The notes under the pieces are model-generated. The model did no database searches and was not told the origin of the DNA. It worked only from the letters and a program-made list of their open reading frames with translations. Both the position numbers and the translations under genes were made by a program. Shown here piece after piece: positions 2,933 to 36,258 of a stretch of DNA of 64,000 nt. This DNA is from Aneurinibacillus terranovensis DSM 18919. Its GTDB lineage: Bacteria; Bacillota; Bacilli; Aneurinibacillales; Aneurinibacillaceae. Position 1 is the stretch's first letter, and every line of letters starts with the position of its first letter. The stretch covers positions 123,281 through 187,280 of the forward strand of contig NZ_KE387172.1 in NCBI RefSeq assembly GCF_000430625.1, given 5' to 3'.

Positions 2933-3483
2933 TAAAAGGGAGCTGCCGGCATGAGGCAGTGTTTATATTAGCCACCCGACCACGCATTACGTGTCAAGAC
3001 GAGCGTCTCTAGGCTTTGGACACTCGTAACCAAGCATCCATCAAGCTGCCTACACCTTGTTTGACGTAGGTTATGCTCATGCTTCTATGAAGGACATTCC
3101 TCTAAAACCCCTATCCATTGAAATGGAATTTGTTTTAGAGGAAACAGCTAACGGGCCATTAGGAATAGCCTTCTAGAATTTTCCCGTTTTATCATCAAAA
3201 AAAATTTCGAAGGTCATCTTTGCTTAGTCAAAGGTGGCCATTTTATTTTGAGGAAAATAGAATATTTCCTTGCGTTAAAAGGGAATACCGTACTTTCCCG
3301 TTTACCACAACTGTTTGTCGGTACTGTCAAGGAGGTCAAGGGTTATGCACCCTCCCTAACCGAATTGTATCTAAATCAAACATGCTGATTTATAAAAAGA
3401 CGTGCTTAAGGGAATATTTTCATATATTACTGTTGTACTTATTTTTCAGCCACCAACAGGTTACCCAAACTCAGGAGGCTTCT
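2933..3483 (+). other. Structured intergenic region upstream of the glucan synthase
   Basis: No convincing gene is visible. The stretch is rich in inverted repeats. CTGCC/GGCAG flanks 2942-2962. AGACGAGCGTCT (about 2997-3008) is a perfect palindrome. A nested structure CCTCTAAAAC/GTTTTAGAGG (about 3100-3143) encloses TCCATTGAAATGGA, and AACGGG/CCCGTT (about 3150-3190) follows. Then comes a terminator-like hairpin at 3212-3250. An open frame runs from 3220 into the glucan synthase, but it lacks a ribosome site and is probably untranslated leader. Confidence 0.5.
3212..3250 (+). terminator. Rho-independent terminator-like hairpin
   Basis: GGTCATCTTTG (3212-3222) pairs with CAAAGGTGGCC (3229-3239) over 11 bp with two G-U pairs and a six-base loop, followed by ATTTTATTTT. 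It lies about 235 bases before the glucan synthase start, so it could end an upstream transcript or act as an attenuator in the leader. Confidence 0.6.
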
Positions 3484-6400
3484 ATGATTCTTAACAACGA
3501 CCAACTACAAACCCGCGCACGCGAGTTTGCCTTGACAAATGAATTATGTGCAACCAATCGCCTAAACGTCCGATTCTGGCCAGCTTTTCGATCCGATATG
3601 TCCAGCCTGCGTACATTTGCCGAGCGACTAGCCAACAGCAGAGTTGAATGTATGCAACCTGCTGAAGACTGGTTGCTTGACCATATTGCCTTCTTGGAGA
3701 TACAAGCGCAAGTGGTCATTGGAAAATTGCCGCGAGCTACCCTTCACCAGTTACCAAAGTTGCGGGATACTGGAATGCCACGCATCTATGCCATCTGTGA
3801 TGATTATCTAGAGCATGTGGATGGGCATTATGAAGTACACTCGTTTGAGACGTACCTGCATTCGTACCAGGAAGTGTCTGTCCTCACGATTATGGAATGT
3901 TGGGCATTACCGACCGCCATGCGAGTTGTTATCATTCGTCGTCTTGCACAAGCTATGCGTGAGGTACGACACCGACACGAGGTATGCGATTCCGTTGCAT
4001 CCTTACTAGAACGTATGGGCTCAACGGACATGTCGGATGACAAAATTCGCGCGTTATTGGAGCGCGAAACACGTAAACGCACCTTCAGTTCTACCGAAGT
4101 TGTTCATCTCGTGCTGCACCTGAGCGAATGGGAACCAGATATCCGAATAGTTCGGGACTGGCTAGCTGCATATGTGGAGAATAGTGAATCGAGCCTTGAG
4201 CAGATGGTCTCCTTTGAACACCAGCTTCAGGCGGAACTGCAGGTCACTTGTGGCAACCTGGTGCAAAGTCTGCATATTTTGGAGCGACAGCCGTGGCGTT
4301 TAACGTTCACAAAGATTTCCCACGTGGAACAAATCCTTCTATCTGACACAAGCAGTGAATATGAACGCATGGACTTTGCAAGCCGGGACTTGCTCCGTGG
4401 ACGCGTTGCGGAAATTGCTCATCAGCTGAACGTTCCGGAAACCTTGGTTGCACAAACTGTCGTGTTGCTCGCAAAGCGCCGTCAGTCGGATACGTGTTCA
4501 CCGGATGTACCATCGCGAGACGCATGTCTTGCGTATTACTTGCTCGATTCACACGGAATTGCGGCCACGCGCAGAGCGCTCTGCGAGGTGGCGCGCCCTC
4601 GCCGCTTACCGTACATTTCCATTCGCCGCCACCCATTATCCGTGTATTTATCGAGCGCAACTCTTTTATTTATCGGTTTGATGATGCTCGCTGGTGTCTG
4701 GATATCCTTCGGAATCACGAGTCGACCTCTGTCTTATCTAGCGATCTTTGTTGCGCTTGCTTTGCCTGTGAGTGAATGGGTTGTTACCATCGTGCACGAA
4801 ATGATTGGTAAATGCTGTCGGCCCACCACGCTCCTGCGCTACGACTTTTCTGATGGTTTGCCCGAAGATGCCCGTACGATGGTAGTCAAGCCAGTCATTT
4901 GGTCGAATATCGAAGAAGTAGATGATGTGGTGGATCGACTGCTGGTTCACTACCTCGCGAACCGACAGCAGCATATCCATTTCGCAATCTTGGCGGACTT
5001 TCCTGATGCACCGACCGAAACGCGGGCAGATGATGAGAAGCTCCTAGCGCACGCTGTCGCTCGAATTCAGGCATTGCGGGCGAAATATGGGTCAGATCGA
5101 TTTTTTCTATTTCATCGATCCCGTCGTTATAACTCAGTCGATGACGTGTATATGGGGTGGGAGCGTAAGCGTGGCAAATTGGTTGAGTTCGTTGAACTCT
5201 TGTCGGGTAGCGACGAGACCAGTTTTACGACAGTGTACGGACAAGCGGATGTCCTGCGAGATATCCGGTACGTGTTTACGGTCGATCACGACACACAACT
5301 CCCGATAGGCGTCGTGAGCCGCATGGCTGGTACCATCCACTTTCCGTATAATCGACCGCGGCTCAATGACGCAGAGACTCGTGTCATCGAAGGATTTGGT
5401 GTGCTGCAGCCCCGCATTGGGGTCAGTCTTGAATCTACACAAAAATCCCGTTTTGCGGCACTGTGGGCGGGGCGGCCGGGCATTGACCCGTATGCTTTTG
5501 CGGTCTCCAACCCATATCAAGATTTGTTTGGCCAGGCCATCTTTGTTGGCAAAGGCATCTTTGACGTCGAGGCGTTTCGAAAGACACTGGTCAACCGTAT
5601 TCCGGATAATCATGTGCTCAGCCATGATTTACTTGAGGGTGGTTTTCTTCGCGCTGGGTTGACTTCCGACATCGAAGTTGTAGAAGAGCACCCAAGCACT
5701 TTTTACGCGTATGAGCGCCGTGCACATCGGTGGATGCGAGGCGACTGGCAACTCATCAAGTGGTTGGGTCGAACGTGTAATGGCCGCCATTGCGATGGGC
5801 AGCGCATTGATTTATGCGGACTGACACGTTGGCAAATCATTGATAATTTGCGCCGAAGTCTCATCGCTCCTGCACTTTTGCTCGTCGCGCTGCTTGGTGT
5901 GTGTGTGCTGCCTGGCCGGGAAGTGGTGTGGGAAACGATTGTGCTGTTGACAATTTTCCTCCCGTTCCTGCGTGCTATCGCGCATGGATTTCTAGGCCGC
6001 GGCGACATGCAGACGATTGGCGTCACTTTCCTACAGAGTGTCGTGCAACTCATGACCTTACCGTTTGCCGCCGTGCTTGCATCAGACGCCGTGCTACGCA
6101 CCCTCTACCGAATGTTCGTGAGTCACCGCAAATTGCTGGAGTGGGTTCCGGCTGCACAGATGGATCGCCGTCCCGTAAACAGGCGAGTGTTTGCGTATGA
6201 GCCGGCTGGCTTCGTCGTCATTGCTCTATTTGTCGTGCTAACGTGGCTGTCCGGCGGGCCTACGAATTACGTCATCGGATTTGTTGCTTTGATTATTTGG
6301 CTCCTGTCTCGGCCGTTCATTCAGTACTTGAACCGTCCGAGAATCGAAGAGGGACGCACGTGGTTGGATGCTGCACGTCCGGAGCTAAGAGAATTGGCGC

Positions 6401-9400
6401 GACAAATATGGTCGTTTTATGAGCGGTATGTCACCGAGAACGAATCATGGTTGCCGCCTGACAATGTGCAGTATTATCCGCAGGAGACAATTGCGCATCG
6501 TACGTCGCCGACCAATATCGGGTTGTACTTGGCTTGTGTTATTGCTGCACGTGATCTAGAGTTCATTGACACCGCCATGATGGTGGAGCGCCTAGAAGCG
6601 TCGATGAAAACCCTCGTTGAAATGGAAAAGTGGAATGGGCACCTGTTTAACTGGTATGATACACGTTCAGCCAAACCGCTTGCGCCTCGGTACGTATCCA
6701 CAGTTGATTCCGGAAACTTGGTCGCATATCTGATGGTTGTACAGCAGGGGCTTCGTCAGTGGGGCCAGCGGGATTCGGCATTGCAATCCCGCATTGAGCG
6801 GCTCCTGGAAGAAATTGATCAGTTCACCGAACAAACCAATTTTGAGTCATTGTACAACGCGGATGAACGCTTGTTCTGTTTGGGGTACCATGTCGACGCA
6901 AATCGAAAAGAGACCGTTCTGTACGATTTATTGGCTTCAGAGGCACGTCAAGCCAGCTTCGTCGCAATTGCCTTAGGGCAAATTCCGGTTTCTCACTGGT
7001 TTACCTTAGCTCGTACAATGACGTTGGCTGGAGGCTGCAAAACGTTCTTGTCTTGGTTCGGCACGATGTTTGAGTATTTGATGCCGAGTCTCATTATGCG
7101 GACATACCGGAACACCGTTTGGGACTCCACATATCGAGGAGTCATTTACCGCCAGCGGGAGTATGCCGATAGACATAGCGTGCCATTTGGCATTTCCGAA
7201 AGTGGCTACTATGCGTTTGACTATCAACTGAACTACCAATATCGGGCTTTCGGTGTCCCGGGTCTTGGATTGGAACGGGGCCTAGAACGGAACCTGGTCG
7301 TTGCGCCGTATGCCACTATCATGACCTTACCGTTTTCAGGGGAAGCAGGCATGGCAGCCTTGCGTAAGTTTGAAGATTTTGGTGCGAAGGGCGAGTACGG
7401 CTTTTACGAAGCGGTTGACTTCACCGTTCAACGACTGCCAGCCGGCAGTCGTCACGAGGTCGTTCAGAGTTTTATGGCGCACCATCAGGGCATGAGTATG
7501 CTGACGATTGTCAATTTGTTAGTGAATGATATCATGATCGAGCGATTCCATGCCGATCCACACGTGCGCGCAGCGAATTTGCTTCTGCAAGAGCGAATCC
7601 CGGTAAAGGCGGCACTGATTGAAGAGCCCCTCAGGCTTCATGAGGAGTTGCCGGAATTCAATGGACAGACAGACGATGCAGAGCGGACGTTTACCGAACC
7701 GACTCCTGTACCGGAAGTAAACGTGTTGTCCAACGGCCGTATGACCAGTGTCACCACAAATGACGGAAATGGCTTGCTTACATGGAATGGGCTTGCTGTT
7801 ACGAGGTGGCGGGAAGATCCGGTTGTTGACACATCCGGTGTAATTGTTTATCTTCACGACGTCACTTCAGAGAAAACATGGAGCACGACGCGATTCCCAT
7901 GTCGGACGGCAGAGGACTCCATCGCTGTGTTTCGGCTTGATAAAACGACCTACGAGGGGAATTATCAGGGTATTTCGTCCAAATTGGAATTGGCCGTATC
8001 CCCGGAGGTCGATGCCGAGGTACGGCGGGTTCAACTGATCAACAACAGCGATAAGGAGCGCACGCTTGAGGTGACGTCGTTCTTGGAGTTGGCGTTGGCG
8101 AGCCAATCAGCAGATAGGGCCCATCCGGCTTTCAACAAGTTGTTTATTCAAACGAGCCACGACGCTAAAGCGCAGTGCTTGTTGGCTAAGCGGAGACCTC
8201 GCGAAGAGGACGAGCAGGAGCTGTGGGCAGTTCACACTGTATACGTTGATCGCCACGAGGTAGGGGATTACGAGTTTGAAACGGACCGGGAGGCATTCAT
8301 TGGCCGCGGCCATTCGTTACAAGCACCGAAGGCGATGTTCATGCGGCTGCGCGGCTCCGTCGGTTCTGTTACTGATCCGGCGTTTGCCATGTGCCGTCGT
8401 ATCCACCTTGCACCACAGGAGACTGCCACTGTTTATATCGTGACGGGTGTTGCGGAAAGTCGGGAACAGGCGATCGAGATCATTCATCGTCTATGCGAGC
8501 CGGCGCAAGCGGACCGTACTTTTCACTTAGCATGGGTACGCACGCAAATCGATCTTCGGCATCTCCACCTGTCGCCAGTACAAGCCTCTGCTGCTCAGCA
8601 CTTGGCGGGACGGCTTCTTTATACTCCGCCTCTGTCACGAGTGCGTCGGAATGCGATTGCTCACAATGCTTTAGGCCAGTCTGCCTTGTGGTCACATGGG
8701 ATTAGTGGTGACGCACCGATCGTCACGGTGTGGATCAGTAACTTGGCGGATTTACCGTTTGTCACGCTTGTGGCCCGCCAACACCAGTACTTGTGTGCAT
8801 TGGGGTTGGCAGTAGATCTCGTCGTGCTCGACGAGACCAATGATGGTTATCAGGATGAGATTATGCAACGGTTGCGTGAGAATCTCGCTGTTCGGGGGAT
8901 TGGGGAGATGAAACGTATCGTGGGGCTCAAATTTTCTCAACTGTCAGAGGCTGAACGAACGCTCCTTTTTGCGGTATCCCGTGTCCTTTTACGAGCAGGT
9001 GGCCCAAGCTTACACGCACAATTGCAAATCAGCGAAGGTGAATTACGGCCATTGCCTGGCCTGCCATTGCAGCGCGACGCGAAACGTCAACATGTACCAC
9101 ATTTTCCGGACCAAGGCGAATTTTTCAATGGATGGGGTAGTTTTGTTGAAGACGGTCGAGCGTACCAGATTTATGTGCGGAGTGGAGAATATCTACCGAG
9201 ACCGTGGAGTAATGTATTGGCCAATCCGAGATTTGGTTGCATCCTGACTGAACTTGGTACCGGTTACAGCTGGTGGCGTAACTCACGTGAGTGTAAACTC
9301 ACGCCTTGGAATAACGACCCGGTGCTCGATCAGCCAGGGGAGTGTCTCTACTTGTGTGACCTCGACACCAACAGTATCTGGTCGGCAGCCCCCAAACCAG

Positions 9401-11550
9401 CTGGTGGGGAACGGACATATAAAGTCACACACGGGTGGGGGTTTAGTCGGATCGAACAAATGGATGGCGAAATTGTACACACGATGGAGACGACGGTTCC
9501 ACTGGACGATCCGCTGAAAGTCATCAGACTCAAGCTACGCAATACGGGAGAAGACACGAAGCGAATTTCCGTCACGTATTACGCCGAGTGGGTTCTTGGG
9601 GTAATGCGGGAAAAACAGGCCCCCTTTGTCGTAACCGAGTGGGATAAGGAACATTGTACGTTACTTGCCAGGAACACGTACCAAGAGGAGTTTCGAGATG
9701 CTGTTGGTTTCCTGCACATGAACACAGGTGTGCTGGATAGTACATCGTATACCTGGACGGGGGACCGGACGGAGTTTATCGGCCGCGGCGGAACACAGGA
9801 ATGTCCTGCAGCGCTATATAACAGAAAACTGTCCAGGCGTACGGGCACATTCTCCGATACGTGCGGCGCGGTTCAGACAGTTGTCGAACTGCCTGCAAAG
9901 GGTGACGCGACGATAACCATTTTGTTTGGCTGTGCATCCTCGAGAGAAGAGGTGAATTCGCTTATTCGTCAGTACGGTAGAGCATCTGCCTACGAGGATA
10001 CGCTTGCAAGCGTGACGCGTTATTGGGAGCGCATCACCGGTCAGGTTAAGGTAAAAACACCAGATCGAGCGATGGACTTGATGATGAACGGTTGGCTTTT
10101 GTACCAAACGCTCACTTGTCGGTTGTGGGCCCGAACGGCGTTTTATCAAGCTGGCGGTGCATTCGGATTTCGTGATCAATTGCAGGACTCCCTTGCGTTC
10201 CTGCATACAGACTCATCCATCACCCGGCAGCAAATATTGCATAACGCTGCCCATCAGTATCAGGAAGGGGACGTTCAACATTGGTGGCACGATGAAACAA
10301 ACAAAGGAATACGTACGCGGTTTTCCGATGATTTATTGTGGCTTCCGTATGCTGTATCCCGTTATCTGGAACACACGGGCGATGTCAATATTCTGAATGA
10401 AATCGTGCCATTCCTCCACAGCGACGTGCTTAAAGAGGGGGAATTGGAGCGGTATGAAGACACTGTGGTATCTGACGAGCGAGGTTCACTGTTGGAGCAT
10501 TGCCTGCGGGCCATTCGCCATGCCCTTCGATTCGGAGAACACGGCATTCCGCTCATTGGCATCGGTGACTGGAACGACGGTATGAACCGCGTCGGTGCAA
10601 AGGGGCTTGGAGAGAGTGTCTGGCTGGGCTGGTTTCTACTCGATATCCTGAAGCGGTTTACGCAAATGGAGAAGGACGTTGTTCCCTGTCATCTAGTTGA
10701 CAAGTTTAAGCAAACGTTGTGCGAATTAGAGCAGCACCTAAACGATCACGCATGGGACGGTGCTTGGTTTCGCCGCGCGTTTACCGACTCCGGGAAGTGG
10801 CTTGGGTCAAGGGAGAACAAGGAGTGTCGAATTGACGCCATCGCGCAGTCGTGGGCAGTGATATCGCAGGGAACATCGGCCGATCGACAAATGCGTGCGA
10901 TGCGCTCGTTTGATCGTGAACTGGTGGACCGGGAATTGGACCTTGCGCGGCTATTGACAAAGGCGTTTGATGAAACGCAGCCAAGCCCGGGGTATATACA
11001 GGGCTATCCACCTGGGATTCGCGAGAACGGTGGACAATACACGCACGGCGTCATTTGGGGCATTGTCGCTTGGGCGATGTTGGATCGTCGTGATAAGGCG
11101 TTTGAGCTTTTTTCTATGCTCAACCCAATTTCACACACGCGAACATCACGTGAAGTCCGGACGTACGCAAATGAACCGTATGTGATGTCGGCTGATGTGT
11201 ATACGGCGGATCCGCATCAAGGTCGGGCCGGCTGGTCTTGGTATACAGGAGCAGCCGGTTGGATGTACCAAGCAGGACTAGAGTATGTGTTAGGCGTGAC
11301 ACGCCGAGGAGATCGACTGTATGTTCAACCGTGTGTGCCGCCCGAGTGGGATTCGTTCACCATAGAGTACAGATATGGTGGTTCGACGTATTGCATTGAG
11401 GTAAACTGTGGGCAGTGTGGTAAAGTTCCATCAACATGGGTGGTTGACGGCCAGGAAACAATGAATCAGTCGTACTTGCGCCTTGTAGATGATGGCAAGG
11501 ATCACAAAGTTCGGTTGGTATGGGAAGAAAATTGGAAGTTGATACGCTAA
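3484..11550 (+). CDS. ndvB: Cyclic beta-1,2-glucan synthase (NdvB/ChvB-like)
   Basis: A 2688-residue membrane enzyme expected to build, cyclise and trim beta-1,2-glucan from UDP-glucose. The order matches NdvB. The N-terminal region leads into a GT84 glycosyltransferase with FLFHRSRRYN and MGWERKRGK (about residues 541-565), DHDTQLP near 600 and SHDLLEGG plus HRWMRGDWQ (about 715-760). Membrane segments lie near 383-440, 793-850 and 908-945. A glycoamylase-like middle domain (cyclisation, GH189) covers about 1190-1350 and includes MAHHQGMSML. The C-terminal GH94 phosphorylase-like part has the catalytic-loop motif GIGDWNDGMN near 2360. The start is the ATG at 3484 with CAGGAGG upstream; the frame is open for 88 further codons but without a ribosome site. 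No transporter or succinylation partner lies beside it. Best known from Proteobacteria, it is less common in Firmicutes, so transfer is plausible. Confidence 0.9.
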   Translation: MILNNDQLQTRAREFALTNELCATNRLNVRFWPAFRSDMSSLRTFAERLANSRVECMQPAEDWLLDHIAFLEIQAQVVIGKLPRATLHQLPKLRDTGMPRIYAICDDYLEHVDGHYEVHSFETYLHSYQEVSVLTIMECWALPTAMRVVIIRRLAQAMREVRHRHEVCDSVASLLERMGSTDMSDDKIRALLERETRKRTFSSTEVVHLVLHLSEWEPDIRIVRDWLAAYVENSESSLEQMVSFEHQLQAELQVTCGNLVQSLHILERQPWRLTFTKISHVEQILLSDTSSEYERMDFASRDLLRGRVAEIAHQLNVPETLVAQTVVLLAKRRQSDTCSPDVPSRDACLAYYLLDSHGIAATRRALCEVARPRRLPYISIRRHPLSVYLSSATLLFIGLMMLAGVWISFGITSRPLSYLAIFVALALPVSEWVVTIVHEMIGKCCRPTTLLRYDFSDGLPEDARTMVVKPVIWSNIEEVDDVVDRLLVHYLANRQQHIHFAILADFPDAPTETRADDEKLLAHAVARIQALRAKYGSDRFFLFHRSRRYNSVDDVYMGWERKRGKLVEFVELLSGSDETSFTTVYGQADVLRDIRYVFTVDHDTQLPIGVVSRMAGTIHFPYNRPRLNDAETRVIEGFGVLQPRIGVSLESTQKSRFAALWAGRPGIDPYAFAVSNPYQDLFGQAIFVGKGIFDVEAFRKTLVNRIPDNHVLSHDLLEGGFLRAGLTSDIEVVEEHPSTFYAYERRAHRWMRGDWQLIKWLGRTCNGRHCDGQRIDLCGLTRWQIIDNLRRSLIAPALLLVALLGVCVLPGREVVWETIVLLTIFLPFLRAIAHGFLGRGDMQTIGVTFLQSVVQLMTLPFAAVLASDAVLRTLYRMFVSHRKLLEWVPAAQMDRRPVNRRVFAYEPAGFVVIALFVVLTWLSGGPTNYVIGFVALIIWLLSRPFIQYLNRPRIEEGRTWLDAARPELRELARQIWSFYERYVTENESWLPPDNVQYYPQETIAHRTSPTNIGLYLACVIAARDLEFIDTAMMVERLEASMKTLVEMEKWNGHLFNWYDTRSAKPLAPRYVSTVDSGNLVAYLMVVQQGLRQWGQRDSALQSRIERLLEEIDQFTEQTNFESLYNADERLFCLGYHVDANRKETVLYDLLASEARQASFVAIALGQIPVSHWFTLARTMTLAGGCKTFLSWFGTMFEYLMPSLIMRTYRNTVWDSTYRGVIYRQREYADRHSVPFGISESGYYAFDYQLNYQYRAFGVPGLGLERGLERNLVVAPYATIMTLPFSGEAGMAALRKFEDFGAKGEYGFYEAVDFTVQRLPAGSRHEVVQSFMAHHQGMSMLTIVNLLVNDIMIERFHADPHVRAANLLLQERIPVKAALIEEPLRLHEELPEFNGQTDDAERTFTEPTPVPEVNVLSNGRMTSVTTNDGNGLLTWNGLAVTRWREDPVVDTSGVIVYLHDVTSEKTWSTTRFPCRTAEDSIAVFRLDKTTYEGNYQGISSKLELAVSPEVDAEVRRVQLINNSDKERTLEVTSFLELALASQSADRAHPAFNKLFIQTSHDAKAQCLLAKRRPREEDEQELWAVHTVYVDRHEVGDYEFETDREAFIGRGHSLQAPKAMFMRLRGSVGSVTDPAFAMCRRIHLAPQETATVYIVTGVAESREQAIEIIHRLCEPAQADRTFHLAWVRTQIDLRHLHLSPVQASAAQHLAGRLLYTPPLSRVRRNAIAHNALGQSALWSHGISGDAPIVTVWISNLADLPFVTLVARQHQYLCALGLAVDLVVLDETNDGYQDEIMQRLRENLAVRGIGEMKRIVGLKFSQLSEAERTLLFAVSRVLLRAGGPSLHAQLQISEGELRPLPGLPLQRDAKRQHVPHFPDQGEFFNGWGSFVEDGRAYQIYVRSGEYLPRPWSNVLANPRFGCILTELGTGYSWWRNSRECKLTPWNNDPVLDQPGECLYLCDLDTNSIWSAAPKPAGGERTYKVTHGWGFSRIEQMDGEIVHTMETTVPLDDPLKVIRLKLRNTGEDTKRISVTYYAEWVLGVMREKQAPFVVTEWDKEHCTLLARNTYQEEFRDAVGFLHMNTGVLDSTSYTWTGDRTEFIGRGGTQECPAALYNRKLSRRTGTFSDTCGAVQTVVELPAKGDATITILFGCASSREEVNSLIRQYGRASAYEDTLASVTRYWERITGQVKVKTPDRAMDLMMNGWLLYQTLTCRLWARTAFYQAGGAFGFRDQLQDSLAFLHTDSSITRQQILHNAAHQYQEGDVQHWWHDETNKGIRTRFSDDLLWLPYAVSRYLEHTGDVNILNEIVPFLHSDVLKEGELERYEDTVVSDERGSLLEHCLRAIRHALRFGEHGIPLIGIGDWNDGMNRVGAKGLGESVWLGWFLLDILKRFTQMEKDVVPCHLVDKFKQTLCELEQHLNDHAWDGAWFRRAFTDSGKWLGSRENKECRIDAIAQSWAVISQGTSADRQMRAMRSFDRELVDRELDLARLLTKAFDETQPSPGYIQGYPPGIRENGGQYTHGVIWGIVAWAMLDRRDKAFELFSMLNPISHTRTSREVRTYANEPYVMSADVYTADPHQGRAGWSWYTGAAGWMYQAGLEYVLGVTRRGDRLYVQPCVPPEWDSFTIEYRYGGSTYCIEVNCGQCGKVPSTWVVDGQETMNQSYLRLVDDGKDHKVRLVWEENWKLIR

Positions 11551-31894: not shown

Positions 31895-32869
31895 ATGAAA
31901 AAAGTAATGGCACTGGGTGAAATGTTGATTGATTTTGTACCTGAAACGAACGGGCTGCCGCTTGATGAGGTGCCTTCTTTTAAAAAGGCTCCGGGCGGTG
32001 CTCCCGCAAACGTGGCAGCCGCCGTGGCGCGGCTGGGAGGCTCTGCATCTTTCGTTGGTAAAGTAGGCAGGGACCACTTCGGATTATTTTTAAAGAATAC
32101 ACTGCAGGATATCGGCGTGGATACACAACATATGCTGCAGACGGACGAAGCAAAAACAGCGCTTGCTTTTGTGTCATTGAAGCAGGACGGGGAGCGAGAT
32201 TTTCTTTTTTACCGTGATCCTTCAGCCGATATGCTACTGCGCGAAGAGGAAATCGATGCGGCCATGTTTAATGATGTGAGTATATACCATTTCGGATCCA
32301 TTTCATTAATCAGTGACCCGTCGCGCAATGCAACGGTGAAAGGGGCCAAACTGGCACGGGAAAAAGGTGTTCTTGTCAGTTATGACCCGAATTTGCGCCT
32401 GGCTCTCTGGAAAGATGCTGAAGAGGCAAAACGGGTGATCATGGAGCATGTATCGCTCGCCGATATGGTGAAAGTAAGTGAGGAAGAGCTTGAGTTTCTC
32501 ACAGGAGAAACGGACCCGCTGGCGGGGGCTGACTTTTTCCTGAACAAAGGAGTACGGTTGCTGCTTGTTACATACGGCAAAGAGGGCAGCGTCTACGTCT
32601 GGGATGGGGAAGCAAGAAAAGTAGAAGGCCGCGCGGTGCAAGCGGTTGATACAACCGGCGCCGGAGACGGATTTACCGGCGGGATATTATATCAGATGGC
32701 CCGGGCGGGAAATACAGTGGAGGAGATGTTTGGCACCCTTACGTTTGAACGGCTTGATTCCATTGTGCGGTTTGCCAATACGGTTGGAGCCCTCACAACA
32801 ACGAAGCGGGGCGCGATTTCCGCGCTGCCGACCCTCGAAGAAGTTACATCCCGGCTGGGCTCTTTGTGA
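31895..32869 (+). CDS. scrK: Fructokinase (PfkB/ribokinase family)
   Basis: A 324-residue sugar kinase that phosphorylates fructose, probably at C6 with ATP. It starts with LGEMLIDFVPE, has the substrate-side GGAPANVAAAVARLGG motif (about residues 33-49), and the anion hole and catalytic Asp in DTTGAGDGFTGG (about 255-267). The closest resemblance is to ScrK-type fructokinases, although related PfkB enzymes for other sugars cannot be excluded. The ATG at 31895 has AGGAGG upstream. No sucrose gene is adjacent, but the fructose PTS genes lie 0.5 kb away on the other strand. Confidence 0.85.
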   Translation: MKKVMALGEMLIDFVPETNGLPLDEVPSFKKAPGGAPANVAAAVARLGGSASFVGKVGRDHFGLFLKNTLQDIGVDTQHMLQTDEAKTALAFVSLKQDGERDFLFYRDPSADMLLREEEIDAAMFNDVSIYHFGSISLISDPSRNATVKGAKLAREKGVLVSYDPNLRLALWKDAEEAKRVIMEHVSLADMVKVSEEELEFLTGETDPLAGADFFLNKGVRLLLVTYGKEGSVYVWDGEARKVEGRAVQAVDTTGAGDGFTGGILYQMARAGNTVEEMFGTLTFERLDSIVRFANTVGALTTTKRGAISALPTLEEVTSRLGSL

Positions 32870-32942: not shown

Positions 32943-32980
32943 GGACAGGCCTTCCTTTTGGCTGTCCACAAGCTTTTTTT
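32943..32980 (+). terminator. Terminator between the fructokinase and the SelW-like gene
   Basis: GGACAG (32943-32948) pairs with CTGTCC (32962-32967), with additional GCC/GGC pairing inside, followed by a T-run at 32974-32980. It would end the fructokinase transcript. The T-run overlaps the stop region of the convergent SelW-like gene. Confidence 0.6.
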
Positions 32981-33224
32981 ATTCGTTTCTTTGCTGGCGA
33001 ATCGCCGCGCTTACTTCTCCCGCCCTGGGAAAACGGTCCAGCTCCTTTTTCGAAAAGATGAGCTGTTCGTCCATGCTTACCTCAAATACACCTCCTCTAG
33101 ACGGGATAACAACGAACTCCTGGATGTCAAAACGAAAATTATCGTCCTGCATAAGCTCTTCCATCAAACTGATGGCTTTAGGCAGGTAGTTTCACATATT
33201 GCAGTATTCGATACGGATATGCAT
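32979..33224 (-). CDS. SelW-like (Rdx family) selenoprotein with in-frame UGA
   Basis: Read through a TGA at 33192-33194, the frame gives an 81-residue protein starting MHIRIEYCNMU. The TGA falls exactly at U of the C-x-x-U redox motif (Cys8, U11) of SelW/SelT/SelH-like thioredoxin-fold proteins. Downstream of the TGA the frame stays open and matches the family: NYLPKA after the U, then a central SRGGVFEVSMDEQLIFSKKE segment and RFPRAGEV near the C-terminus. The ATG at 33224 has AAAGGAG eight bases upstream and a promoter at 33256-33284. A SECIS-like hairpin begins 16 bases after the TGA. A role in thiol redox is inferred from the family. The alternative is a Cys-to-stop mutation, but its exact place in the motif and the hairpin argue against that. 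Confidence 0.82.
33161..33175 (-). promoter_or_regulatory. Candidate bacterial SECIS hairpin
   Basis: In the mRNA, CCAUC-AGUUU-GAUGG forms a 5-bp stem with a five-base loop starting 16 bases after the UGA. The loop has a G at its second position, 23 bases after the UGA; bacterial SECIS elements usually carry a G in the first two loop bases at about this distance. CCUGC and GCAGG further out can also pair. Confidence 0.6.
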
Positions 33225-33255
33225 AAACAACACTCCTTTATAGGGGAAATTCTAG

Positions 33256-33406: not shown

Positions 33407-35338
33407 TTATTCTTCGACTCTCTTTTTAAGAGCGTTGACCGTTAAGGCCGTAACAATCGTTCCGGCAATAATGGACACAATATACCAGCCAACGTTACCG
33501 ACAACCGGCAGAACGAAAATTCCTCCGTGCGGCGCCGGCAGCGTACACCTGAAAAACATCGATAATCCACCGGCAACAGCGGAACCAAGCATTGCTGCAG
33601 GGATGACGCGCGTCGGGTCTGCAGCCGCGAATGGAATCGCTCCTTCGGTAATAAACGTTGCGCCGAGTACATATGCGGTTTTTCCGGCTTCCCGTTCCTG
33701 CGGGGTAAACTTGTGTTTAAATAAGGTCGTGGCAAGCGCGAGCCCAAGCGGCGGTGTCATACCGGCTGCCATAATCGCCGCATGAGGCAGATAGTTTTTA
33801 TTGGCAATCATGGCGATGCCAAAGGTGTAGGCCGCTTTATTAATCGGTCCGCCCATATCAAACGCCATCATCGCACCGAGTATGATTCCCAGAATCACGG
33901 CATTTCCAGTGCCCATATTTTGCAGCCAAACGCTGAGTGCCTGGTTAATATAAGCGACAGGAGGCGAAATAAGATAGATCATGCACAGGCCTGTAAGTAA
34001 AATACCAAAGAGCGGGTACAGCAGCATCGGCTTAATCCCTTCAAGCGTGGAAGGAAGGCCGGCAAATATTTTTTTAAGTCCTACGACGATGTAACCGGCA
34101 AGAAAACCGGCAATTAGCCCTCCGATAAATCCGGCGCCGGAAGTAGCCGCTAACAACCCGCCAACCATACCGGGAGCCAGACCAGGCCGATCAGCAATAC
34201 TCATGGCAATAAATCCGGCCAGAACGGGAATCATTAAACCAAAGGCGGTTCCTCCGCCAATATCGTGCAAAGCCTTGGCAAACGCGTTAAAACTTGGGTC
34301 TTTCGGGTCAAACGATTTGATACCAAACATAAAGCCAACGGCAATAATAATCCCGCCGCCTACTACGAAAGGCAGCATGTTCGATACCCCGTTCATTAAA
34401 TGCTTGTAGAAGGCCGATTGCTTGCTTTTGCGCGCAGCTTTTGATTCGGAAATTTGATCTTGGTACGACTTGCTTGCCTGTTTGCCCGCATTCGTGCCAT
34501 AAACGGGAGCATCCTGTTTTTCTGCCTGCAAGAGCAGCCTTTTTGGATTTCGAATCGCTTCCGCAACGGGGACTTCAATTAACACCTTGCCCGCGAACCG
34601 TTCCATCTCAACCTGCTTATCTGCAGCTACGATAACAGCAGTTGCGCTTGCAATGTCTTCCTCGGTCAGCAGGTTTTTAACCCCACCCGATCCGTTTGTC
34701 TCCACTTTAATATCGTACCCCATCGCCTCTGCCTGTTTTTTCAGCGAATCGGCAGCCATATACGTATGGGCAATCCCGGTCGGACAGGCGGTAACAGCCA
34801 CAATCTTCACGCGATGAGTAGCGGCGGGAGACTGATTTTCAGGGACGGCTTGTCGTGGCTCTCCCGATTCCTCAGCTAATAAAGCGTTTTCTTTTTCGGT
34901 AATCAGGGTGAGAATCTCCTGTTCATCCAGTGCCTGCATAATCTTCTGGCGCAGATCTTCGTCCATGAGAAGCATAGAGAGGCGGGCCAATGCTTCCAGG
35001 TGGGTATCGTTTGAACCATTTGGTACCGCAATCATAAAGAAAAGGTGAGCTTTTTGCCCGTCAAGTGAGTCGTAATCGACCCCTTCTTTTGAACGTCCGA
35101 AAGCGATGTGCGGTTCCCGCACGGCCTCCGTCTTGGCGTGCGGGATGGCAATGCCTTCACCAACACCGGTTGTGCTTTGCGCTTCCCGGGCGAGGATGGC
35201 TTCTTTCATCTTTACTCTGTCAGCAAGATAACCGCCCTTATGAAGGACTTCAATTAGTTCGTCAAGCACACTTTCTTTTGTGTTTGTCGTGAGACTCATC
35301 TTCATCGTATCCGTTGTCAATAATTCCGTAATTCTCAT
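33407..35338 (-). CDS. fruA: PTS fructose-specific transporter, EIIABC
   Basis: A 643-residue phosphotransferase permease that imports fructose as fructose 1-phosphate. Domains in order: EIIA with the phospho-His in GIAIPHAKTE (about residues 60-70), EIIB with the phospho-Cys in VTACPTGIAHTYMAA (about 180-195), and a C-terminal EIIC domain with eight or more membrane helices (about 310-640). The start is the ATG at 35338, ten bases after AGGTGG; an ATG three codons earlier is too close to that site. Third gene of fruR-fruK-fruA, following fruK by five bases. Confidence 0.95.
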   Translation of the reverse strand: MRITELLTTDTMKMSLTTNTKESVLDELIEVLHKGGYLADRVKMKEAILAREAQSTTGVGEGIAIPHAKTEAVREPHIAFGRSKEGVDYDSLDGQKAHLFFMIAVPNGSNDTHLEALARLSMLLMDEDLRQKIMQALDEQEILTLITEKENALLAEESGEPRQAVPENQSPAATHRVKIVAVTACPTGIAHTYMAADSLKKQAEAMGYDIKVETNGSGGVKNLLTEEDIASATAVIVAADKQVEMERFAGKVLIEVPVAEAIRNPKRLLLQAEKQDAPVYGTNAGKQASKSYQDQISESKAARKSKQSAFYKHLMNGVSNMLPFVVGGGIIIAVGFMFGIKSFDPKDPSFNAFAKALHDIGGGTAFGLMIPVLAGFIAMSIADRPGLAPGMVGGLLAATSGAGFIGGLIAGFLAGYIVVGLKKIFAGLPSTLEGIKPMLLYPLFGILLTGLCMIYLISPPVAYINQALSVWLQNMGTGNAVILGIILGAMMAFDMGGPINKAAYTFGIAMIANKNYLPHAAIMAAGMTPPLGLALATTLFKHKFTPQEREAGKTAYVLGATFITEGAIPFAAADPTRVIPAAMLGSAVAGGLSMFFRCTLPAPHGGIFVLPVVGNVGWYIVSIIAGTIVTALTVNALKKRVEE

Positions 35339-35343
35339 GGTTA

Positions 35344-36258
35344 TCATTCCACCTTTGTAAGTATAATCGAAGGCAGATACGCTTCAATTTTTTCCGGCGT
35401 GCAGAATCCTTCCGATAAGGCGGTTGCACTTCCAGCTGCCACCGCGTATAAAAATGCAGACGGGATGGGTACTTGTCCAGCGTGTTTGAATAAAAATCCC
35501 GCCACCACTGAGTCACCTGCTCCGATGGAATTGACAGGGTTGGCTTTTGGAATGTGAGCGATATAAGCTTCCGTCTCGTTGACAAATACCGCACCAGCGC
35601 CTGCCAGAGAAACAATAACATTCCGGGCGCCCATCGGCAGGGTTTTCCTTGCATACGCGATAGCTTGTTCCGGTGATTCGATTTTTACATTAAACAGTTC
35701 GCCAAGTTCATGGTGGTTCGGTTTGATTAAAAACGGCTGCTCGGCAAGCCCATTGCGAAGGGCTTCACCGCGGGCATCGAGAAAAATCCGGACGCCTTTC
35801 GGGCGAAGGGCGCGCATAATCCGCTCATAAATAGCCGGCTCCACACTTGCTGGAACGCTGCCTGAAAGAACGAGATAATCTCCTTCCGTAAGGCTGTTAA
35901 GCTGGTCAAAAAGAGCATCGATATCCTGCTTCGAGATAGCGGGAGAAGCCCCGGATATTTCGGTTTCCACAGGTATCTGGGCCTTAATGTTAATGCGGGA
36001 ATCGCCTTCCACAGGCAGGAAACGTGTGGAGATGCCTGCATCTTTAAGCTTGTCTTCAATAAATCGCCCGGTGAACCCCCCGATAAAACCAAATGCTGTA
36101 CTTTCTGTACCAAGATTTTTAAGCACCTGCGAAACGTTAATTCCTTTTCCTCCAGGCCTTTTCCACTCATGCTGGACACGGTTGATCGTGCCAACTTTGA
36201 AGGTGGGAAGTTGAATAAAGTAGTCGAGAGAAGGGTTTAGTGTCAGTGTGTAGATCAT
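35344..36258 (-). CDS. fruK: 1-phosphofructokinase
   Basis: A 304-residue PfkB-family kinase that phosphorylates fructose 1-phosphate to fructose 1,6-bisphosphate. The N-terminal MIYTLTLNPSLDYF start is typical of FruK. GGKGINVSQVLKNLG binds the sugar phosphate and GAGDSVVAGF (about residues 250-260) contains the catalytic Asp. The start overlaps the fruR stop by four bases, showing translational coupling. Its substrate is the product of the FruA transporter encoded next. Confidence 0.95.
   Translation of the reverse strand: MIYTLTLNPSLDYFIQLPTFKVGTINRVQHEWKRPGGKGINVSQVLKNLGTESTAFGFIGGFTGRFIEDKLKDAGISTRFLPVEGDSRINIKAQIPVETEISGASPAISKQDIDALFDQLNSLTEGDYLVLSGSVPASVEPAIYERIMRALRPKGVRIFLDARGEALRNGLAEQPFLIKPNHHELGELFNVKIESPEQAIAYARKTLPMGARNVIVSLAGAGAVFVNETEAYIAHIPKANPVNSIGAGDSVVAGFLFKHAGQVPIPSAFLYAVAAGSATALSEGFCTPEKIEAYLPSIILTKVE

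Follow-up and report, generated by a model that had tools for sequence, protein, structure and literature searches.

The minus strand of the window (the whole 64,000-nucleotide stretch of Aneurinibacillus terranovensis DSM 18919 DNA analyzed here) carries a gene for a SelW-like protein that is interrupted by a single TGA, and this is, with high confidence, a functional selW-like selenoprotein gene. The coding sequence (positions 32979 to 33224, minus strand) runs from an ATG at 33224 to 33222 to a TAA ending at 32979 and specifies an 81-residue Rdx/SelW protein once the TGA is decoded as selenocysteine. The TGA (33192 to 33194, minus strand) is codon 11 and the sole stop inside the frame. As the initial annotation had proposed, it falls at the selenocysteine position of SelW/Rdx proteins, forming the C-x-x-U motif (C8 and U11) of the N terminus MHIRIEYCNMUNYLPK... 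The expectation that standard annotation would call only the last 62 codons also agrees with the mechanical ORF list, in which the gene appears as 32979 to 33167 with a TTG start at 33167. A ribosome binding site, AAAGGAG, can be read at 33233 to 33239 (minus strand), 8 nt before the ATG, as claimed. The promoter claimed along with it was not recovered by a consensus promoter scan, which gave no match upstream of the gene and one match inside it, as many as shuffled sequences give on average (1.0). A search of Rfam around selW returned nothing relevant. The gene stands isolated in the window between a fructose-type PTS gene (33407 to 35347, minus strand) and a PfkB kinase gene (31895 to 32869, plus strand). 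Elsewhere in the window, positions 3220 to 11550 hold a 2,776-residue ORF with GH94 and glucoamylase-like domains, which by its domain content we take to be like a cyclic beta-glucan synthase.

The proposed relationship to SelW-like families is borne out by alignment of the read-through product, which matches Pfam Rdx over residues 2 to 77 (4.2e-19, 69 bits against a cutoff of 22.6), TIGR02174 (54.6 bits, cutoff 34.2), and the NCBIfam "(seleno)protein" model NF041051, the last at 88.9 bits, barely above its cutoff of 88. The Rdx and NF041051 matches span the TGA, and therefore the sequences on both sides of it belong to the SelW family. The structure predicted by AlphaFold2 with 30 relatives (pLDDT of 94.2; a single sequence gave a poor model with a pLDDT of 52) agrees with the thioredoxin-like SelW fold expected of the family and places C8-U11 between a strand (residues 2 to 8) and a helix (residues 14 to 25). 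Its best matches in the PDB, among them 2fa8 (TM score, 0.87), are SelW-related proteins. The Cys-type SelW-related structures 2fa8 (from Agrobacterium), 2obk, 3dex, and 2p0g resemble the window protein in fold and length, with TM scores of 0.83 to 0.87 over about 77 residues and identities of 27 to 38%, and they differ from it at the second motif position, where they presumably have Cys and the window gene has UGA. Mouse selenoprotein W (2npb) shares the CxxU arrangement and a profile match of 4.5e-7 with the window protein but is distant from it (23% identity; TM score, 0.56).

The initial annotation held that the genome must carry selA, selB, selC, and selD, and all four are present in the assembly (4.25 Mb in 98 contigs, rated 100% complete), so refutation of the selenoprotein by missing Sec genes is excluded. 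selA matches with 495 bits and selB with 338 bits; the selB product has the beta-barrel and winged-helix domains of SelB, and about 1.2 kb from selB lies a tRNA-Sec gene whose anticodon is UCA. selD immediately precedes selA and is divergent from a gene for a rhodanese-domain protein, which we assume to be the tRNA 2-selenouridine synthase MnmH. selD (L002:7182-8231) is itself a selenoprotein gene. Its frame contains a TGA at the selenocysteine position, in SKAGUGCKIGPAD, with a strong hairpin behind it (z score, -3.45), and standard ORF calls begin the gene at a TTG beyond this TGA. In the short list of families screened, selW and selD were the only selenocysteine-containing genes found in the genome. 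The two formate dehydrogenase alpha genes and the HesB-like and AhpC/TSA protein genes have no in-frame stop, and GrdB was not found in a search that had no control match.

A link between selW and selenium is supported independently of the selW sequence by gene order in other members of the class. In Halalkalibacter, Alkalihalobacillus, Neobacillus, and other Bacillaceae and their relatives, selA immediately follows selW (loci L091, L097, L100, L113, L114, L116, L128, and L132, and also L044 and L050). Where the locus includes selD, that gene is divergent from selW, and its product likewise reads GUGCK. Such an arrangement is compatible with the UGA acting as a selenium-sensing switch, which would set the amount of full-length protein or act on the neighboring selenium genes more than it would supply a catalytic residue; read-through of selW could be coupled to translation of selA, and recoding in Escherichia coli is partial and dependent on the selenium supply (PMC4513850). 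The window selW, however, stands alone, on a contig other than that of selA, and the whole protein, including C8 and the rest of the fold, is conserved as in an enzyme, which makes a primarily regulatory UGA improbable.

The distribution of the gene points to decoding as selenocysteine. The protein was found in 30 of 151 related genomes, in 29 of them in the TGA form with one TGA at the motif. A strong SelA match, defined by an E value below 1e-100 to drop weak matches to other PLP enzymes, is present in 29/29 genomes with the TGA form versus 17/122 of the others (Fisher's exact test, 1.8e-19, a value that serves as a guide only because the genomes are not independent). The thirtieth SelW-bearing genome (G131) has only a gene with a Cys codon and lacks a SelA match, and one genome (G015) contains both the Sec form and the Cys form. 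Among 399 sampled genomes of the class, 55 contained the protein. The initial annotation had described selenocysteine use as rare in Bacillales, and a survey from 2006 counted only three selenoproteins in this order (PMC1794560). By species, this use is not rare in the class, with full-strength SelA in 46 of the 151 related genomes, a sample centered on this genome and not a census. One congeneric genome (G001) has a strong SelA and no SelW-like match; selW was probably lost there while Sec decoding was retained, and selW is thus dispensable.

The codon itself is conserved well beyond these relatives. In a scan with one genome per species, the motif was found in 79 of the 80 best loci, and the codon was TGA in all 79, which belong to Bacilli, Clostridia, Chloroflexi, Poribacteria, Desulfobacterota, and others. 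TGA occupies the same codon in 110 retrieved loci, which comprise 105 distinct sequences, and its recurrence at this codon is therefore not due to chance.

In bacteria, the SECIS element is a stem-loop that closely follows the UGA and carries a guanosine in its small apical loop, whereas in eukaryotes it lies in the 3' UTR (PMC1088965). The window gene has a hairpin of the bacterial form inside its coding sequence, shortly behind the UGA (33161 to 33175, minus strand), with a 6-bp stem, CCAUCA/UGAUGG, and a GUU loop. The hairpin starts 16 nt and the loop 22 nt after the UGA, and the element occupies bases 19 to 33 when the T of the TGA is counted as 0. Taken by itself it is unremarkable, with a modest folding energy (z scores of -1.6 to -1.9) and all six pairs kept in about 26% of synonymous recodings of the window gene, and the case for it therefore rests on comparison. 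Across the 105 distinct sequences from many phyla, the six stem pairs are kept in 92% of cells, and pairing falls to 25 to 49% of cells when the partner is slid by 1 to 3 bases. Covariation amounts to 15 further pair types and 85 two-sided changes, and all six pairs occur together in 73% of the sequences versus an average of 10% (maximum, 19%) after synonymous codon shuffling. Two Cys homologs keep only two and none of the six pairs. The hairpin noted in the initial annotation is thus supported by covariation in a fixed register among relatives. Tissierella-type Clostridia (L059, L069, L072, L076, L079, L103, and L126) have the same UGA and no hairpin in the common register; their SECIS element may take a different form.

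Recoding is predicted here from sequence, and the TTG at 33167 opens a frame of 62 residues, so it can be asked whether the UGA is read by near-cognate suppression (e.g., as Trp or Cys) or whether only the 62-residue product is made, with no selenocysteine entering the protein. The conserved hairpin in its fixed register, the strict limitation of the TGA form to genomes with SelA, and the location of the UGA at the catalytic position argue against both, and the 62-residue form would miss strand 1 and the redox motif; we rejected these readings as very unlikely. The TGA might also have come from a Cys codon through gene decay or a sequencing error, since it is one base from TGC and TGT and the family has known Cys forms (L049 and L054). 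This is hardly credible and is refuted by the conservation of the TGA in the 110 loci of many phyla. Further evidence against it is the purifying selection seen when the window gene is compared with its closest relative (dN of 0.23 and dS of 1.96, the latter near saturation), the absence of any other stop from the frame, and the hairpin and the co-occurrence with SelA, both of which it would leave unexplained.

Selenocysteine insertion at the UGA in the cell is therefore strongly, if indirectly, supported by these comparisons. When a ribosome reaches codon 11, SelB carrying Sec-tRNA-Sec (UCA) would bind the hairpin that starts 16 nt after the UGA, and selenocysteine would be inserted instead of termination taking place. 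The product would be an 81-residue protein of the thioredoxin fold with its C-x-x-U redox motif at the turn between strand 1 and helix 1. It is most likely a small thiol/selenol oxidoreductase, which is predicted to cycle through a C8-U11 bond.

A SelW paralog with a U-x-x-U motif was observed outside the window in the same order, in Ammoniphilus sp. YIM 78166 (L052/L083; L083:4001-4228) and in a second Ammoniphilus species (L053), and it lies on the reverse strand in L052 and L053. This paralog was found in 2 of the 55 SelW-bearing genomes of the class sample. Its two in-frame UGAs are nine bases apart, and the only hairpin is in register with the second one. The two species have retained both UGAs, and the gene is under purifying selection (dN of 0.14 and dS of 1.55). 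If both codons are decoded, one hairpin would serve the two of them and the paralog would be a diselenide-type SelW, a proposal for and against which we see about equal reason. UxxU motifs are known in other bacterial families (PMC13188914, PMC2398784), and the SELENOW-like entry in PMC13188914 has only CxxU with one Sec.

Bacterial SelW-like selenoproteins with a CxxU motif have been described previously (PMC1088965, PMC1794560, PMC2398784), the family has been known since about 2004, and in both the Sargasso Sea and the GOS data sets it was the most abundant selenoprotein family (PMC1088965, PMC2398784). The window gene adds a new member to this family. Its product shares the profile (PF10262, TIGR02174/NF041051), length, and CxxU motif of the bacterial proteins, and the gene shares the SECIS-like hairpin with a G at the start of the loop; it differs from them in nothing of principle, and what is new is the host lineage, the family of Aneurinibacillus. 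No earlier report of SelW in Aneurinibacillus or Brevibacillus was found in open-access papers, and one may exist elsewhere.

The window selW adds a well-supported selenoprotein to the class Bacilli, and it illustrates how genes of this kind are cut short by automatic annotation. The alignment of 105 distinct genes with the hairpin in register across phyla helps to define the SECIS element of the SelW family, and the adjacency of selW and selA in Bacillaceae hints that SelW and selenocysteine synthesis are linked there.
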